64,000 nucleotides of DNA, taken from assembly GCA_035506275.1 (NCBI GenBank), contig DATJPT010000008.1, positions 186,001-250,000 on the forward strand, read 5' to 3'. The notes under the pieces were generated by a model, which was not told the DNA's origin, searched no databases, and saw only the letters and a program-made list of their open reading frames with translations. Positions 3,995 to 42,358 of this stretch are shown piece after piece. The translations under genes and the position numbers were made by a program. The stretch comes from Bacteroidota bacterium (GTDB lineage: Bacteria > Bacteroidota > Ignavibacteria > UBA10030 > UBA8401). The number at the start of each line of letters is the position of its first letter. The stretch's first letter is position 1.

Positions 3995-4471
3995 TTACAT
4001 CTTGCCTACGGGAATCTCTGTCAGCATGGCCGCCAGCTTCCCTTGAATAATATACTCATGAATAATGTCTAATGCTTGAACTTGCCCCGGCCAAACCAAG
4101 AGCTGCTTTGCGCGATCCGACGAACACCACTCAAACTCATAATGTTCTTGCGAAAGGACGGGCATCGTTCCTTCCGGAACTTGTGCGGCGAATACGGCAG
4201 AGATATGCACGACATCGCGCTTCGGGTTCAGAAACGTGTTCATATGAGGCACAAGCCAATACCGCTCCGGCATGAGGCCGGTTTCTTCTTTCAATTCTCT
4301 AAGCGACGCCTTCACCGCGGTCTCGTTTCCCTCGATCGACCCGCTCACCATTTGCCATGTGTCCGGATAGATGCGGTCCGTCTTCGAACGCCGGAGCAGC
4401 AGGAAACGGGGCGCATTTCCCGAGAAACAAAAAATACACACTTCGACAATATTGCACTCGATCGTAGACAT
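3995..4471 (-). CDS. Nudix hydrolase
   Basis: Hydrolyses a nucleoside-diphosphate-linked substrate (X). The complete Nudix box GX5EX7REUXEEXGU is at residues 44-66 (G44...E50...RELKEETGL), so the Mg-binding glutamates are intact. The fold starts at EVCIFCFSG, and the protein is 158 residues. The overall look, with LLLRRSKTDRIYPDTWQMVSGSI before the box, resembles NudB-like dihydroneopterin-triphosphate pyrophosphatases, but there is no folate gene nearby to confirm this. Its ATG overlaps the stop of the pseudouridine synthase (TAATG), implying coupled translation. Confidence 0.88.
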   Translation of the reverse strand: MSTIECNIVEVCIFCFSGNAPRFLLLRRSKTDRIYPDTWQMVSGSIEGNETAVKASLRELKEETGLMPERYWLVPHMNTFLNPKRDVVHISAVFAAQVPEGTMPVLSQEHYEFEWCSSDRAKQLLVWPGQVQALDIIHEYIIQGKLAAMLTEIPVGKM

Positions 4472-35601: not shown

Positions 35602-35631
35602 AAAATAAAAAGGCGTTGAGGAGTCAACGCC
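35602..35631 (-). terminator. Rho-independent terminator of the btuB unit
   Basis: Minus strand: GGCGTTGA / TCAACGCC stem (35612-35631) with a four-base loop, followed by TTTTTATTTT (35602-35611). 27 bases after the BtuG-like gene stop. Confidence 0.9.
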
Positions 35632-35657
35632 CGTTGTTCAAGCAAGGCGCGTTCAAC

Positions 35658-36716
35658 CTAATGTTTGAAGACAATGACGCCTGGTATAATGCCGACGGTG
35701 GCCGAATCTCCTATGAGACCGTTTTTATCGTAGGAATAAAGCATTCCGTTTTGCACATAGTCTTTTGCGTCCCCCAAATAGATCTTCTCGGTTACGTCGT
35801 CCACGGCGATGCAATAAGGAGATTTTGGAATAAAGACGGGAACAATTATCGACGCCGCTTTGGTGTCAAACTTTGCGATACCGTTCTGCGCGATGATAAA
35901 ACCGTACCCGCGGCTCGAAACAGCCAATCCGCTCGGATGACCGTACGCCGACAGCGGAAGGGGGATCGTTGCAACGACGGAGTTTCTGCTCGGATCGATC
36001 ACCGTAATGTTTCCCGGAGTATCGTTTGCGGAATTGGTATAGTCGACGTATCCGTAGCAGGCCACCACCAGATTTCCGTCCGCATCAACCGCAATGTTCG
36101 TCGGCTGCTTCGCAACGGTAATGGTCTGGACCACGGTATCGACCCCCGGATCGATCACGGAAATCGTGCTGTCGTCCCCGTACCCGGAATTACATACATA
36201 GACTTTGCCGTTCGCGATTGCGATCCCCTGAGGGTTTGAGCCTACTTTGATGCCGTCCTTGATGACCGTGTACGTCGTCGGGTTGAACGATGTGACAGAT
36301 CCGGAATATAGATTTGTAATATATCCTTTACTGTCGCTCAGAATGGCCAGCTTGTACGGACTGTCGCTCCCGACATACATGGTGCCGAGAGATCTATTGT
36401 TCGCGAGCGAGATGACCTCTACCTTGTTGGAATTATTGACCACGATGAAACCCTTGTTTTCAAATATGACCATGTCGTTCCCGACATCGCCGAGCGGGCG
36501 ACCGTTCGCGGCAAAAAAAACATCCGGGTACACTTTGTTGGAATCGGGGACATAGAATGAAAGCGACGAATTTGATTTCTGGAAATTTCCCTCATTGACG
36601 ACATAGACTCCGGTTGTCGATACAGGGAGTTCTTCACCCGAAGAGACAGGACCATTCTTCGTGCACCCGAGCAGCGTTATTGAAACGACGAAAACGGCAA
36701 TGAAATGGTTGAGCAT
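35658..36716 (-). CDS. BtuG-like beta-propeller surface lipoprotein (cobalamin capture)
   Basis: 352 residues. Lipobox ITLLGC (Cys18) then CTKNGPVSSGEELP. The body starts GVYVVNEGNFQKSNSSLSFYVPDSNKVYPDVFF, very like the VYVLNEGN...SSLSYYD opening of Bacteroides BtuG/DUF5074 proteins, and is built from about seven YncE-like blades (SPYKLAILSDSKGYITN, NPQGIAIANGKVYVCNSG, QPTNIAVDADGNLVVACYG, HPSGLAVSSRGYGFII, SPYCIAVDDVTEKIYLG). BtuG sits on BtuB at the cell surface and binds cobalamin very tightly (known for Bacteroides). It is 21 bases downstream of btuB and under the same riboswitch. Assignment rests on fold, context and opening motif. Confidence 0.8.
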   Translation of the reverse strand: MLNHFIAVFVVSITLLGCTKNGPVSSGEELPVSTTGVYVVNEGNFQKSNSSLSFYVPDSNKVYPDVFFAANGRPLGDVGNDMVIFENKGFIVVNNSNKVEVISLANNRSLGTMYVGSDSPYKLAILSDSKGYITNLYSGSVTSFNPTTYTVIKDGIKVGSNPQGIAIANGKVYVCNSGYGDDSTISVIDPGVDTVVQTITVAKQPTNIAVDADGNLVVACYGYVDYTNSANDTPGNITVIDPSRNSVVATIPLPLSAYGHPSGLAVSSRGYGFIIAQNGIAKFDTKAASIIVPVFIPKSPYCIAVDDVTEKIYLGDAKDYVQNGMLYSYDKNGLIGDSATVGIIPGVIVFKH

Positions 36717-36737
36717 GATTTCTCCTCTGTTGAAGAT

Positions 36738-38687
36738 TTATAATGACAATTCGGATGTCAGCATGAAATTCCTGAGCGGCACTGGATATCCCGAAATGAA
36801 CTGGTAGTCCTCGTTGAATGCATTATTCACTTCCCCCTTCAGCATCCAAACGGCTTTCCCGAGCCCGATGCGATACGACAAATTCGCTCCGACGGTCCCG
36901 AAGGATGGCAGTACGAATCGGGGATCATTATCCGCGGAGACATACCGAAAGCCTGTATACGAATACGTGACGGCCGCGGAAACATTCTGCACGTTCGTTC
37001 CGACAACAACCGTCGAGGTTTCCTGAGGCAGGTAGGGCAGATATTTATTTTGAGTCGCATCGCCCGGGAAATCAGCGCTCGTCTTCAGCGTCCGGACATA
37101 ATTCCCAGTGTAGCGGATGCTGATAAGGTTATTCCATAATTGCGCACGGATCGTACACTCCGCCCCTGTTGAAGAAACGGACTGCAGATTGACCGGTGAC
37201 CAGATGCCGTTCGGTCCAGGCTGCCAGACGATCTTGTCCGTCGCTTGAACCGAAAAATAATTCGCCTCCGCTTCGATATTCCCGAGGAGTTCCATCCGAT
37301 ACAGGAAACCGGCGTCAAAGCTGAGCGAGTGTTCAGGCTGAAGATTTGGATTTCCCCCTTGGGTCCAGTACAAATCGTTGAACGTCGGCGCGTTGAAGCT
37401 CTTGCCGTAGCTCGATCGAATTCTCAGCATCGGTTCGTCCAGCAGCCCGATGTTAACGCCGATTTTTGGGCTGACGTCCCCTTTCACGTCGCTGAACGAA
37501 TCGTACCGCAGCGACGGATAAACGATCACATCGAGGGGAACAGGAAGGCGGTCTTCGGATGAAAGAAAGCCGCTCAATTGCGTGCGGGAAGAATTTTTTA
37601 ATTCATCGCTCGAGATGAACGCAAATGCTGCATCGGCTCCTGCCAAAACTTTATCCGCATCCGACACGGCATACGTGCAGGTGGGAGAAGATGAAACAAC
37701 CCGGTTGTGATAAAAATCTGTCGTAGGCGAATTGCCGATCAGCAAATTCGGGTCAGCGTATGTTTCATAGCTGTCATGGAAGGAAACTGGGAGCGAATAC
37801 TGAATTCCGGAGGATGGCTGAAGTTCGATCGATGCGGTTGCGAACAGGTCTTTATCATCGATGCGGGCCAGGTTGTTTTGTACCGGACTCGTGACCGCGG
37901 AGGGCTGGCCCCGATCGGCATCGGAATATCTGATGCTGGTTGTAAACACTGCCGCAGGATTTAGCATTGCGCTTGAAGAAAGAGAGTAGTGTTTCAGCGA
38001 ATAGTCCGCCCCTTCCCGCTCGAGCATCCGGTTTGTGCTTCCATCGTCAAAATAGAACCCAAAATCATTCCGGGCATTTTCCATACCCATCGACCCGCGC
38101 AGGGACAACTGCTCATCCCCCGCTCCGACGGAGATCTGATATCCGCTCATCCCGAATGAACCAACGCTGCCGGAAACGGCGGCATCAAGTTTTCCGCTCG
38201 GTTTCTTTGTGATGATATTGACCACGCCGCCGATCGCGTCGGAACCGTACAACGAAGAATTCCCCCCGCTGGCGATTTCAATCCGGTCGACATCCATTAA
38301 GGAAAATATGCCAAGGTCCACGGTGTTCATCTCGTAGGTTGTAAAACGCTGTCCATTAAGGAGGATCAGCGAGTAGTCAGAGCCCATTCCGCGGATGGAA
38401 ATCGAGTGGAGTGCACCGTTCCCGCCGTAGCTTTCCAGGAATACCCCCGCGGACGCCGATACCACGTCCGCGACTGAAAAGCCGTTGCTTTGCGCCATTG
38501 AAACACTATCGACAACCTGCACCGATGATGGGAGGCGTTCAACCGGGACGGGCATCCTGTTTCCCGTGATAACGACTTCTTTTGCCACATACTGCCGCGT
38601 TGTATCCGTCCATTCTGAAAACAATGTCGAAGAGAGCGCGAGATCGACGCTCAGGGTGCACAGCATCACTAAAAGAAATTTCTTCAT
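36738..38687 (-). CDS. btuB: TonB-dependent vitamin B12 receptor
   Basis: Outer-membrane active transporter of cobalamin. 649 residues. Signal peptide MKKFLLVMLCTLSVDLALSS, TonB-box-like AKEVVITGNRMP, a plug domain (PSSVQVVDSVSMAQSNGFSVADVVSASAGVFLESYGGNGALHSISIRGMGSDYSLILLNGQRF, IEIASGGNSSLYGSDAIGGVVNIITKK) and a 22-strand barrel to the C-terminal aromatic end NFMLTSELSL. Specificity is given by the cobalamin riboswitch 110 bases upstream and by the BtuG-like gene downstream. The start at 38687 is set by the signal peptide. Confidence 0.92.
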   Translation of the reverse strand: MKKFLLVMLCTLSVDLALSSTLFSEWTDTTRQYVAKEVVITGNRMPVPVERLPSSVQVVDSVSMAQSNGFSVADVVSASAGVFLESYGGNGALHSISIRGMGSDYSLILLNGQRFTTYEMNTVDLGIFSLMDVDRIEIASGGNSSLYGSDAIGGVVNIITKKPSGKLDAAVSGSVGSFGMSGYQISVGAGDEQLSLRGSMGMENARNDFGFYFDDGSTNRMLEREGADYSLKHYSLSSSAMLNPAAVFTTSIRYSDADRGQPSAVTSPVQNNLARIDDKDLFATASIELQPSSGIQYSLPVSFHDSYETYADPNLLIGNSPTTDFYHNRVVSSSPTCTYAVSDADKVLAGADAAFAFISSDELKNSSRTQLSGFLSSEDRLPVPLDVIVYPSLRYDSFSDVKGDVSPKIGVNIGLLDEPMLRIRSSYGKSFNAPTFNDLYWTQGGNPNLQPEHSLSFDAGFLYRMELLGNIEAEANYFSVQATDKIVWQPGPNGIWSPVNLQSVSSTGAECTIRAQLWNNLISIRYTGNYVRTLKTSADFPGDATQNKYLPYLPQETSTVVVGTNVQNVSAAVTYSYTGFRYVSADNDPRFVLPSFGTVGANLSYRIGLGKAVWMLKGEVNNAFNEDYQFISGYPVPLRNFMLTSELSL

Positions 38688-38702
38688 GCCCTGTACAATA
38701 GA

Positions 38703-38731
38703 AAACCTCAGCCCTTGACAAGCTGAGGTTT
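38703..38731 (-). terminator. Intrinsic terminator between riboswitch 1 and btuB
   Basis: Minus strand: AAACCTCAGC pairs with GCTGAGGTTT (10 bp) and is followed by TTTCTATT. It lies between the cobalamin aptamer and the btuB start, where it would act as the off-state of a transcriptional riboswitch. Confidence 0.8.
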
Positions 38732-38799
38732 CACCAAACGATCCGTACGTCCGAAGACGGTGTCTGGCCACCATACCTCAACCCTCGAAGGCGATGACG

Positions 38800-38996
38800 A
38801 ACAACGCTGGCAGGTCTCCTGGCTCTCCCGATGTTCGCCCTGCCTTCCCGGCTGATTCACTCAGTCAGTGGCGTTGGGAATAATCCTATTCGGGATTACA
38901 GTTGCGGGTCAGCTTCCGATTTGCTGCGCTCAGCCGACGAGCGAGCGAAACTCACGGAATTCCCTTTTCATGGCGCCGCGGGGCGCCACACCAGCA
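38800..38996 (-). promoter_or_regulatory. Cobalamin riboswitch 1 (btuB-btuG leader)
   Basis: On the minus strand the region has the B12 aptamer landmarks in order: GGTGTGGCGCC (38984-38994), GGGAATTCCGTGA, GAAGCTGACCCGCAACTGTA, GCCACTGACTGA, GCCGGGAAGGCAGG, and the B12 box GAGCCAGGAGACCTGCC (38809-38825). Binding of adenosyl- or methylcobalamin should turn off btuB and the BtuG-like gene. The 38688-39028 gap holds this element and its terminator and nothing else. No strong promoter was found just upstream. Confidence 0.95.
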
Positions 38997-39028
38997 TCTT
39001 TTGAAACGGACTCTATCGCATTGAAAAT

Positions 39029-39568
39029 CTACGCGGATGCAGACTGCTCTGTCTCTTCCTTTTTCAGGAGAAGCAGTATTCCTTCATACGCACCGAACAT
39101 CACGGCGACGAAGAACACATCGCCGCTCAGCGTGTTGCGGAAAAACGGTATAGCCGCAACATAACATTCCACCAACCCACTCCAGGTTGGCGCGTACATC
39201 GATCCGGAAGTCATCCACACGCCGAAATTCGTAACGACAAAAAATAGAATCGAGCCTGCGATTGTTCCGCCTGCGATGTACAAGGGGCGCTTATGATCTT
39301 TCAGCCATAGACCGAGCAGGACGATAAGAAAAAAGCTGCCGTACACCCAATACATGCCGCTGTAAAATCCGATGAAGTAGTCGCTGATCAACATCGCCGC
39401 GATCGGCACGATGAACGCGAATCTCCTGTCAAGGTATACGCCGCCGAACAGGGCGATGCCGGCAATGGCCGTAAAATTCGCCGGATGCGGCAGCAGCCGG
39501 GAAAACGCGGCGATAACGATCAACACTGCCGCCGCGCCGTACCGTACCAACAATTGTTTATTCCTCAT
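39029..39568 (-). CDS. DUF6580-like membrane protein under B12 riboswitch control (candidate transporter component)
   Basis: 179-residue integral membrane protein with about five helices (VRYGAAAVLIVIAAFSRLL, NFTAIAGIALFGGVYLDRRFAFIVPIAAMLISDYFIGFY, MYWVYGSFFLIVLLGLWL, LYIAGGTIAGSILFFVVTNFGVWM, VFFVAVMFGAYEGILLLL). The layout, with PHPANFTAIAGIALFGGVYL near the start, is like ECF S-component-type proteins of the DUF6580 family, whose substrate is not established. ATG 39568 has AAGGAG eight bases upstream. The gene has its own cobalamin riboswitch and terminator, so a role in cobalamin or precursor (e.g. cobalt, dimethylbenzimidazole) uptake is inferred. No ECF ATPase is adjacent. Confidence 0.85.
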   Translation of the reverse strand: MRNKQLLVRYGAAAVLIVIAAFSRLLPHPANFTAIAGIALFGGVYLDRRFAFIVPIAAMLISDYFIGFYSGMYWVYGSFFLIVLLGLWLKDHKRPLYIAGGTIAGSILFFVVTNFGVWMTSGSMYAPTWSGLVECYVAAIPFFRNTLSGDVFFVAVMFGAYEGILLLLKKEETEQSASA

Positions 39569-39625
39569 GAATGATGCTCCTTTCATTAATGATGTATCGG
39601 ATAACATTCTTTGCGTCCAATAAAA

Positions 39626-39655
39626 AACCCCGACCTTTGTAAGGGAATCGGGGTT
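39626..39655 (-). terminator. Intrinsic terminator between riboswitch 2 and the DUF6580-like gene
   Basis: Minus strand: AACCCCGA / TCGGGGTT stem with an inner CCCTT/AAGG stem, followed by TTTTTTA. It is placed 58 bases before the ATG and after the aptamer, so it is the likely expression platform. Confidence 0.88.
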
Positions 39656-39723
39656 GAATAAAAATAAACTCATTCGTACTCAAGCTGTGCATCAACCTTT
39701 TTCCTCGAAGGCTCCGCGGCGTG

Positions 39724-39912
39724 AGATTGGCAGGTCTCCTGGCTCTCCCGATTCTCATCCTGCCTTCCCGGCTGACTCAATCAGCCAGTGGCGTTCGGAC
39801 CGTTCCTTTCGGGATCACAGTTGCGGGTCAGCTTCCGAATGATCGTTTCGTTGATAACGGAACAGATTCACGGAATTCCCTTTTCATGGCGCCGATGGCG
39901 CCACACCAACCT
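39724..39912 (-). promoter_or_regulatory. Cobalamin riboswitch 2 (DUF6580-like gene leader)
   Basis: Minus strand carries GGTGTGGCGCC, GGGAATTCCGTGA, GGAAGCTGACCCGCAACTGTG, GCCACTGGCTGA, GCCGGGAAGGCAGG and the B12 box GAGCCAGGAGACCTGCC (39729-39745), closely matching riboswitch 1. It controls the membrane-protein gene and, by readthrough, possibly the btuB unit too. Confidence 0.95.
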
Positions 39913-39943
39913 CAATTATTGCAAAGAACAAATTCCTCTCCTG

Positions 39944-39972
39944 AATATACAACCCGCTCAGCCCGTTGTCAA
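39944..39972 (-). promoter_or_regulatory. Sigma-70-type promoter of riboswitch 2 transcript
   Basis: Minus strand TTGACA (39967-39972), 17-base spacer, TATATT (39944-39949). Start of transcription would fall near 39937, about 25 bases before the aptamer. Confidence 0.85.
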
Positions 39973-40192: not shown

Positions 40193-42334
40193 CTACGGGG
40201 ATCGCAAAATCGGCCTCTTGCTGAATTGCTGGAAGTATTTTAAGCAGGTGTCTCTCCAAATTGCTGCGTCCACTTTCTGCTTTTCAAGCCTGGCCTTGAC
40301 GTGCCGGAACATTTCCGGATCGATAGATTGCTGCAGATCGTTCCACGTTGCCAGCATTGAATCGACATACGCAGTTCCCGCATAATACTTATTGCAGAGT
40401 TCTTCCCAGAGAGTTCTGCCGGATTTCATTTTATGATTCCACCGGACATGATGAAACCAGAGCAAATATTTTTCAGGACAGGCCGCGGTATCGTCGAACA
40501 TTTCTTTCAACGGAGAGAAATACTGTCCCGCCGCGTTGCTGCCGGTGGATGACCGGTCGAAGCCGATCCCAATGCTGTCAGCCCGGTGATAGTAGACCGG
40601 CGTCCAGTCGAGCCGTCTTTTGTCGTACGACGGTTCCGGTCCATAATGAAAATCAGTCTGCATGATATGATGCAGACCAAGAGGCTCCATATAATCGACG
40701 CACGCTTCACGCGATCCCATCATCATCGAACGGACGGAGGCGACGACGTTGGAATCGTTGCTCAGCGTCATCCGGATCCATTCGTTCGCGATCTGTTCCG
40801 CTGAGAGATCATGATCCCATGCAAGCCGTCCGAACGCGTACCAGTTTGCCTGAGCGAAAAGATGGCCGCACCAATTCCGGTCGTCCCCGATATTTGCCAC
40901 TCCTGCCATGCCGGTCATTTGATAATGCTGCAGGGTGCCGTCAACGATCGAAGCCAGCGTAGAACCGGGGCCTTTTGCATAGAGGTCAAACTGAAGGTAC
41001 TCTTTCCACATCGGCGCGAGATAGACCAGATGCGTCGAGTGGCCGAGATATTCCTGTGTGATCTGCAGTTCGAGCATGAGCGGCGTCCTGGGCATTGCTC
41101 CGAAAAGCGCCTGTACCGGCTCCCGCGGCTGGAAGTCGAGCGGGCCGTTCTTTGCCTGGACGAAAACATTCGGCAAAAATTTTCCGTCGAACGGAACAAA
41201 CTCCTTGTACGCCCGTTTCACCCTGTCCGCATCGACATCTGCGTTATAGACGAAGGCGCGCCACATCACGATGCCGCCGTACGGCTGCAGCGCCTCCGCG
41301 AGCATGTTGGCGCCGTCGACGTGCGTCCTCCCAAAGTCCTGCGGACCGGGCATTCCCTCCGAATTTGCCTTTACCAAAAATCCGCCGAAGTCGGGAATGA
41401 TGGAATAGATCTCCTTCACCTTATTTTTCCACCACAATCTGACTTCGGGGTCGAGAGGATCGGCGGTCTTCAGCTTTCCTATCCCCCCTGCCCGGTTTCC
41501 TTCCAGTTCAAATTTCCCGGCCATCGGGGAAGCAAAATTCACCGAGAGAAATACGCGGATGCCGTATGGGCGAAAAAGATCAGCGAGCGCCTTTATTTTC
41601 AGGAGATGGTCTTCGTCGATGATCCTCGGGTCGGCATTGACATTGTTCAGGACGGTGCCGTTAATGCCGATGGATGATGCCGCCCGCGCATAGTCACGAT
41701 ACCGCGGGTCGAGAGTGTTCGGCAATTCGTCCCATTTCCAAAGCGATTTGCCGGCATATCCCCTTTCGATCGAACCGTCGAGATTATCCCAATGATCGAG
41801 AAGGCGATATTCCGTTCTTGGCCTGGATGTAATGTCGAGTGAATCGAGCGGCTGCAAGGTCTGGATAAGTCGGAGAAGATGGAATGCTCCGTACAACAAA
41901 CCGATATTCTCATTGGCTGCAAGAACAATGACTCTGTTCCCCTCAGTTACCGCCGTCTTCAGCACAAATCCTTCTTTTCCAAGCGATCCAATGCTCTTTG
42001 CATCGCACAACATTTTGACTATGGAGGATCTCTTAGGCGTACCGACAACAAGGACGTTTTGTCCGTGCAATGACGAGATAAAAGGGATTTTTCTCCCCAA
42101 CAAGCCGCCTAATCCATTTTCTAACTCTTCTCTTACGATCCGACAGGTTTCAGATGTATCCGTCAAGAGGATGGAAGATATGTGCCTCTGATATTCGACC
42201 AACCGTTTTTCATCAACGACCTTTTTATACTTCATCCACAATTCATATCCATCGTCTGCCATAGATTGTGCAATAAAAACGGCTGAGAGGATCAGGAGGT
42301 AAAAAATATGTCCGAGTAATCTTGGCTGTTTCAT
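40193..42334 (-). CDS. GH67 alpha-glucuronidase
   Basis: Removes (4-O-methyl-)glucuronic acid from xylo-oligosaccharides. 713 residues with signal peptide PRLLGHIFYLLILSAVFIAQSMA. GH67 hallmarks: YRLLDHWDNLDGSIERGYAGKSLW, the acid/base Glu in GFLVKANSEGMPGPQDFGRTHVDGANMLAEAL, GGIVMWRAFVYN, VQAKNGPLDFQPREP and ELQITQEYLGHSTHLVYLAP with the proposed base carboxylates. ATG 42334 is fixed by GGGGAG nine bases upstream; an ATG three codons earlier abuts that site. No xylanase or uronate gene is nearby, so it acts alone here. Confidence 0.95.
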   Translation of the reverse strand: MKQPRLLGHIFYLLILSAVFIAQSMADDGYELWMKYKKVVDEKRLVEYQRHISSILLTDTSETCRIVREELENGLGGLLGRKIPFISSLHGQNVLVVGTPKRSSIVKMLCDAKSIGSLGKEGFVLKTAVTEGNRVIVLAANENIGLLYGAFHLLRLIQTLQPLDSLDITSRPRTEYRLLDHWDNLDGSIERGYAGKSLWKWDELPNTLDPRYRDYARAASSIGINGTVLNNVNADPRIIDEDHLLKIKALADLFRPYGIRVFLSVNFASPMAGKFELEGNRAGGIGKLKTADPLDPEVRLWWKNKVKEIYSIIPDFGGFLVKANSEGMPGPQDFGRTHVDGANMLAEALQPYGGIVMWRAFVYNADVDADRVKRAYKEFVPFDGKFLPNVFVQAKNGPLDFQPREPVQALFGAMPRTPLMLELQITQEYLGHSTHLVYLAPMWKEYLQFDLYAKGPGSTLASIVDGTLQHYQMTGMAGVANIGDDRNWCGHLFAQANWYAFGRLAWDHDLSAEQIANEWIRMTLSNDSNVVASVRSMMMGSREACVDYMEPLGLHHIMQTDFHYGPEPSYDKRRLDWTPVYYHRADSIGIGFDRSSTGSNAAGQYFSPLKEMFDDTAACPEKYLLWFHHVRWNHKMKSGRTLWEELCNKYYAGTAYVDSMLATWNDLQQSIDPEMFRHVKARLEKQKVDAAIWRDTCLKYFQQFSKRPILRSP

Positions 42335-42358
42335 GAAGAGCATCTCCCCTCTGGAGTG

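Follow-up and report, generated by a model that had tools for sequence, protein, structure and literature searches.

In a 64-kb stretch of the genome of a Bacteroidota bacterium of the class Ignavibacteria (order UBA10030, family UBA8401; assembly GCA_035506275.1, contig DATJPT010000008.1, positions 186,001 to 250,000; hereafter the window), genes for vitamin B12 uptake appear to lie under two B12-sensing RNA switches arranged serially behind a single promoter. With a probability of roughly 70%, we read this locus as a single transcription unit repressed by B12 and carrying two serial riboswitches of the OFF type (RS1 and RS2), in which the membrane protein DUF6580 would be a solitary B12 importer, similar to the S-components of energy-coupling factor (ECF) transporters, that replaces BtuCD. 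The unit would run in the order promoter, RS1, terminator 1, DUF6580, RS2, terminator 2, btuB and btuG (Table 1). An earlier note on this DNA had proposed that RS1 precedes DUF6580 and that RS2 precedes btuB and a BtuG-like lipoprotein gene, an order that the matches to PF20221, to TonB-dependent receptors and to DUF5074 bear out; that note covered neither the single promoter and the nature of DUF6580 nor the concerted evolution of the aptamers and a boxA-like motif in their leaders. Such an operon would be a naturally occurring circuit of two gates, with adjacent genes placed behind one copy or two copies of the same sensor, making graded serial control directly measurable.

The covariance search against RF00174 that the earlier note had suggested was run with cmscan at the Rfam gathering thresholds, and returned exactly two matches in the window, both to RF00174, both spanning the full model (positions 1-189) and both above its cut-off of 31.5 bits. 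No third cobalamin aptamer was found in the whole genome (3.7 Mb, 100% complete). The two aptamers lie on the same strand, 915 bp apart from start to start, in agreement with the distance of about 0.9 kb given before; they had also been called near-identical, and this description does not hold, with identities between 74% (tree columns) and 81% (aptamer core). A duplication produced by the assembly was rejected as the origin of the pair, as the copies differ at many scattered sites. The intrinsic terminator that had been claimed after each aptamer was recovered in both cases, and as good a site appeared in 0 of 30 mononucleotide shuffles for either of them, so that a chance origin was rejected. 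In the window's family a terminator was detected downstream of nearly every switch, and after the RS2 of one family genome (G083) no convincing terminator was found.

The reading as a single unit is carried by the distribution of promoters. In 15 of 18 family genomes, the pattern TTGACA-N17-TAT(A/C)TT or a near variant is located 15-20 nt upstream of RS1, matching 9-11 of the 12 consensus positions with a 17-nt spacer, and the remaining three genomes have weaker matches there. In a scan restricted to the sigma70 consensus, no such promoter was detected in the 60 nt upstream of the aptamer of any RS2, where the best site (8/12) equals the background. The gap between the stop codon of DUF6580 and RS2 is mostly shorter than 60 nt across the family. 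With a promoter before RS1 only, and DUF6580 ending near RS2, btuB would therefore stand behind both terminators, and read-through from DUF6580 into btuB is, from the anatomy of the locus, the most likely arrangement. Two separate transcription units, with a promoter for RS2 inside the end of DUF6580, btuB and btuG under one switch and the neighbourhood of both units being mere clustering, would be compatible with a scan limited to the sigma70 consensus, and Bacteroidota also use other promoter types. However, this arrangement seems rather improbable given a promoter that recurs before RS1 and before no RS2, and a gap too short to hold a separate promoter region outside the gene. Two features still count against the single unit: an internal promoter of another type may exist inside DUF6580, and terminator 2 of the window has a short U run with an interruption.

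A mechanism for the switching is suggested by the hairpin of the form N-CCUU...GAGG-N that was found downstream of each aptamer in the family. The closing pair of its stem, P13, is a standard one in 32 of 36 cases and is found in four types (A-U, U-A, G-C and G-U), with A-U preferred in RS1 and U-A in RS2. Its loop, L13, reads CGNGG in 30 of the 31 cases in which the aptamer loop L5 is CCCGC, and is altered in all four cases with the variant L5 CGCGC, reaching a fully pairing CGCG in two of them. This covariation supports that the L5-L13 docking known from cobalamin riboswitches would also operate here. The GAGG strand can in addition base-pair with the terminator's 5' arm, at -15.0 kcal/mol in RS2 of the window and more weakly, at -6.7 kcal/mol, in its RS1. 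With B12 bound, L13 of the post-aptamer hairpin would dock on L5, in such a way that the GAGG strand would lose its role as antiterminator and the terminator would form. Both elements are predicted, from sequence, to be OFF riboswitches.

When B12 is scarce, the polymerase would pass terminator 1 and the inner-membrane importer DUF6580 would be made, and the production of the outer-membrane receptor BtuB and of the capture lipoprotein BtuG would need the passage of terminator 2 as well. The output of DUF6580 would then follow one read-through probability and that of btuB and btuG the product of two, so that basal expression of the outer-membrane parts would be lower and their shut-off steeper. 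Tandem riboswitches for the same ligand (adenosylcobalamin (AdoCbl), thiamine pyrophosphate (TPP) and glutamine, with 26 AdoCbl doublets) have been described as pseudo-cooperative (PMC9481103). The present pair resembles them in that two complete switches for one ligand follow each other, both equipped with a terminator, and in the pseudo-cooperative response expected for the last genes, but its switches are separated by a gene, which would stand behind one gate and the later genes behind two, and the pair is fixed across a family, with homogenised aptamers and distinct platforms. It also falls outside the strict definition of a tandem (one leader with no gene between), as DUF6580 intervenes in all assembled members. 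The words Bacteroidota and Ignavibacter are absent from a survey of contiguous riboswitches of 2025 (PMC12452182). We regard the locus as a real, conserved and novel variant built from known parts, in which DUF6580 has a strong candidate function.

In order to assign DUF6580, its structure was modelled with AlphaFold2 from 61 sequences (mean pLDDT, the predicted local distance difference test, 96.5), and the predicted model has the six-helix fold of ECF S-components. The top Foldseek match was BtuM (TM-score 0.66, E 0.011), and the best folds in VIA-align were also BtuM (8ovv, Z 13.5; 8c7p, Z 13.4) followed by other ECF S-components, with all 22 top rows being S-components, ECF complexes or CbiM (Z 8.4-13.5). 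Since the lead of BtuM is small, the fold indicates an S-component, and the B12 substrate rests on the genomic context. In this regard, of the 60 DUF6580 genes in the order, 48 have a cobalamin riboswitch no more than 6 kb away on their contig, the gene is single-copy beside the riboswitches in the window's family, and DUF6580 was also found behind cobalamin riboswitches in Planctomycetota, SAR324, Melioribacteraceae and Patescibacteria. The comparison set comprised 98 genomes of the order, 22 from the window's family and 76 from other families; 51 encode DUF6580 only, 31 a full FecCD permease only, 8 both and 8 neither. No FecCD permease (BtuC-type) was found in the complete genome of the window, which encodes B12-binding proteins. 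The residues His28, Asp63, Tyr76 and Arg144 of DUF6580 follow one another like His28, Asp67, Tyr85 and Arg153 of BtuM, in a comparison of order only. Together, the model and the context argue that DUF6580 probably works like BtuM, as an inner-membrane importer whose substrate would be B12.

Several data weigh against this assignment. The S-components for biotin, folate and riboflavin reach Z values of 12.2-12.4, within about 1.3 of BtuM; the mutual exclusion of DUF6580 and FecCD (Fisher p 4e-11) comes from a test that ignores kinship, in which FecCD includes iron permeases; and many DUF6580 genes of Patescibacteria have no B12 riboswitch in the DNA retrieved. Moreover, BtuM has an invariant cysteine in loop 3, between a conserved Asp and a conserved Tyr (PMC6072759), and no such cysteine is present in residues 63-76 of DUF6580, nor is any conserved there in the family alignment, for which reason DUF6580 was not filed as BtuM.

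The BtuM of Thiobacillus denitrificans (PMC6072759; 8c7p, 8ovv) is nevertheless the closest parallel in fold, being like DUF6580 a small solitary membrane protein, and occurring with BtuB where BtuCDF is missing. It differs in its invariant cobalt-binding Cys80, without counterpart in the corresponding stretch of DUF6580, in the lack of detectable sequence similarity between the two and in its taxonomic spread. The sole sequence-profile match of DUF6580 in the Protein Data Bank was a weak one (E 0.27) to 6fnp_A, which we take to be a CbrT complex. CbrT (compare PMC5997447) is a B12-specific S-component, as DUF6580 is predicted to be, and is linked to it by this weak match, but it works with an ECF module, and the window genome has only a CbiMQO-like metal cluster, in which its sole CbiQ gene adjoins CbiM- and CbiO-like genes. 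Action of DUF6580 through a shared ECF module was rejected, with CbiQ present in 7 of 22 family genomes and that of the window lying within this cluster.

Import of a B12 precursor (alpha-ribazole or cobinamide) or of cobalt, instead of whole B12, has in its favour that S-component-type proteins with different substrates have one fold, and that B12 riboswitches also control precursor transporters. We consider it unlikely, as the window genome has its separate CbiMQO-like transporter for metal and as DUF6580 genomes are mostly without FecCD, which would leave the B12 delivered by BtuB without any other known way across the inner membrane. For the many B12-dependent bacteria that have BtuB without BtuCD, DUF6580, linked to riboswitches in several phyla, is a specific and testable candidate for the inner-membrane route of B12. 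In the literature searched, with most subscription journals outside its scope, no paper on DUF6580 was found. As a separate observation, DUF6580 genes of Patescibacteria were found behind an AdoCbl-II riboswitch (contig positions 3994-4073) and, on a different contig, behind a cobalamin riboswitch (4096-4231); where such a link exists, it suggests B12 import in this reduced group.

The outer-membrane components are real homologues of the Bacteroides proteins at the sequence level. The best solved-structure match of the receptor is BtuB1 of Bacteroides thetaiotaomicron, and its scores are below the equivalog cut-offs of NCBIfam for BtuB (182 vs 599.7 for TIGR01779 and 141 vs 836 for NF007926), for which reason it was named BtuB-like. 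The lipoprotein, encoded 21 bp downstream of btuB, matches the Bacteroides BtuG 8bmx_D over its full length (residues 6-350, 2.4e-37). It has a lipobox-like LLGC, continued as C-TKNGPVSSGEEL without an acidic residue beside the cysteine, and the tryptophans of the BtuG2 pocket appear not to be all conserved in the alignment. The window resembles the B12 loci of B. thetaiotaomicron (PMC10404256, PMC6143338) in its control by B12 riboswitches, in the adjacency of btuB and btuG and in the full-length homology of its proteins to BtuB1 and BtuG. It differs from them in lacking BtuFCD genes, with DUF6580 in the inner-membrane place, in having one locus instead of three and in a BtuG-like protein without a clear acidic signal for lipoprotein export after the cysteine. 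A survey of 313 genomes from the human gut led to the statement that BtuG is exclusive to Bacteroidetes (PMC6143338), and the Ignavibacteria belong to this phylum or next to it. The earlier note had argued from the serial switches that the BtuB/BtuG system is older or wider than usually described. Homologues of the Bacteroides type do exist outside gut Bacteroides, and the pair is widespread in the order, but the step from the serial switches to age or breadth is weak, since the breadth rests on protein homology across the order, and the riboswitch pair, being restricted to one family, is silent on age.

Across the 98 genomes, the arrangement RS1-DUF6580-RS2-btuB, with its two cobalamin riboswitches on one contig at a distance of 0.7-1.1 kb, was found in 17 of the 22 family members and in none of the 76 genomes from other families. 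Among the other five, one has the halves of the locus on two contigs, two have contigs that start within DUF6580 and retain RS2, and two lack both switches and DUF6580. In the other families the usual order is a single riboswitch, btuB, often BtuG and, where present, DUF6580 in the last place, with BtuF-like and DUF71-like genes sometimes joining the locus. A polysaccharide flippase gene upstream and NanE downstream are common to the window and to distant family members, so that the locus is taken as orthologous. BtuG is absent in several family members that retain both switches and a diverged receptor. In two genomes of 1.7 Mb (G086 and G087), btuB and BtuG are present as fragments only, and both riboswitches and DUF6580 are kept. 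Another genome (G077) has a third cobalamin riboswitch, followed by a second DUF6580 gene and two open reading frames (ORFs; 241 and 324 aa) without Pfam matches. Further afield, a deltaproteobacterial contig (1703-3059) has DUF6580 behind two serial cobalamin riboswitches and may be an independent case, and on an Omnitrophota contig (453-1157) a cobalamin riboswitch begins at the 3' end of DUF6580, as RS2 does in the window.

The two switches show different histories in their parts. In the 60-nt platforms of a ten-genome core set, RS1 and RS2 fall apart into two fully supported groups (100/100), and in the same genomes a clade of RS1 aptamers is rejected (approximately unbiased test, p 8e-15), with the two aptamer copies pairing within the genome in G079, G091 and G096 with starred support. 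In a larger aptamer set, RS1 and RS2 of the window pair with each other (95/87), and the RS1 clade is rejected at 4e-6. Since the platforms group by position and the aptamers by genome, these trees are best explained by a single ancient duplication followed by gene conversion restricted to the aptamer. Such likeness could also arise if duplication had occurred independently several times, or if near-identical repeats had been misassembled, and most of the genomes are metagenome assemblies, in which an error is possible for the most similar pairs; the identical odd insertion in both copies of G089 points in the same direction. We consider either origin improbable, because the platforms form clean groups in the very genomes whose aptamers pair up, gene order and flanking genes are common to the family, and the window copies differ at scattered sites. 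Homogenised aptamers next to position-specific platforms point to conversion acting on part of a riboswitch. In G089 itself, the 3' half including the B12 box is missing from both RS1 and RS2, and both carry the same palindrome-like insertion of about 60 nt, by conversion or as an assembly artefact.

The leaders of these switches also share a motif, GTTCTTT, usually followed by NNNA, directly before the aptamer. Allowing one mismatch (background 4.2%), it was found before RS1 in 18/18 cases, before RS2 in 16/20 and before single riboswitches of the order in 28/39, and the exact form G(T/C)TCTTT was found in 14 RS1, 16 RS2 and 23 single riboswitches. RS2 of the window lacks it, and so do most cobalamin riboswitches of other phyla. 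As the idea arose after the data had been seen, these first counts are descriptive and not a test; the checks on ribosomal RNA (rRNA) and TPP leaders were made later, on new sequences. In the order, 18 rRNA leaders with at least 500 nt of upstream sequence could be anchored, and every one of them has the same core 109-153 nt before 16S; these leaders are those of relatives, the window assembly being without 16S. The motif also precedes TPP riboswitches in 15 of 19 cases in the window's family and in 11/11, 2/8 and 1/2 cases in families f5, f4 and f2, respectively (background 1.2%). The strict pattern of promoter plus motif occurs twice in the window genome, before the cobalamin RS1 and before a TPP riboswitch (C17:122694-122742), and a reversed control pattern occurs once. 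Pairing of GTTCTTT with a platform strand was rejected, as no consistent complement was seen by eye.

By its position and its likeness to the known element, the motif is probably the rRNA boxA of this clade and, by analogy, may recruit Nus factors. A start-site signal or an extra segment of the aptamer is a possible alternative, though the less likely one: in many leaders the motif lies 5-20 nt past the -10 box, but it is also kept before most RS2 copies, which are promoterless, precedes unrelated TPP aptamers and has the same core as the motif ahead of 16S. The regulation of rRNA and suhB by boxA and Nus (PMC5725501) is similar in having a short leader motif of the rRNA boxA type before a regulated transcript, and differs in that the motif of this clade precedes riboswitch aptamers; the word "riboswitch" is absent from that paper. 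The presence of a motif like boxA ahead of two unrelated classes of riboswitch would connect their control with Nus antitermination. A broader picture, which we hold tentatively and at slightly less than even odds, is that riboswitch leaders of this order are commonly boxA-first, loading Nus antitermination before a long sensor RNA, that one family of the order evolved a two-gate B12 operon with aptamer conversion and diverging platforms, and that DUF6580 proteins are widespread BtuM-like importers.

Table 1. Features of the B12 uptake locus, in order of transcription (positions are those of the window).
Feature	Position	Strand	Evidence
Candidate promoter of the whole unit, sigma70-type TTGACA-N17-TATATT	39944..39972	-	11/12 consensus positions match
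boxA-like motif GTTCTTT, 5' edge of RS1	39923..39929	-	Core same as rRNA-leader motif
RS1 cobalamin aptamer	39712..39925	-	RF00174, 103.5 bits, E 8.2e-25
RS1 P13/L13 hairpin CCUUCGAGGAAAAAGG, whose loop is a candidate to kiss L5 of the aptamer	39696..39711	-	Family-conserved; covariation
Terminator 1 hairpin	39626..39655	-	dG -14.0; U run onward to 39621
Predicted BtuM-like B12 importer DUF6580, a membrane protein of 179 aa	39029..39568	-	PF20221, 4.1e-52
RS2 cobalamin aptamer	38792..39010	-	RF00174, 103.3 bits, E 9.6e-25
RS2 P13/L13 hairpin CCUUCGAGGGUUGAGG	38776..38791	-	Covariation in family
Terminator 2 hairpin	38703..38731	-	dG -16.7; U run UUUUCU, short, interrupted
btuB-like TonB-dependent receptor, 649 aa	36738..38687	-	B. 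thetaiotaomicron BtuB1 8blw_A, 2.5e-41, residues 5-644
BtuG-like beta-propeller lipoprotein (DUF5074), 352 aa	35658..36716	-	PF16819, 2.6e-17; lipobox-like LLGC
Unit-end terminator	35611..35632	-	Stem of 9 pairs plus T run

Between the conserved flippase and the B12 locus, the window carries a gene of the GH67 (alpha-glucuronidase) family at positions 40193-42343, of which no counterpart was found among the other loci retrieved. Within the locus, the probable start codons are the ATG at 39568 for DUF6580 and the ATG at 38687 for btuB, both located 3' of the terminators, with the longer ORF starts being disfavoured.

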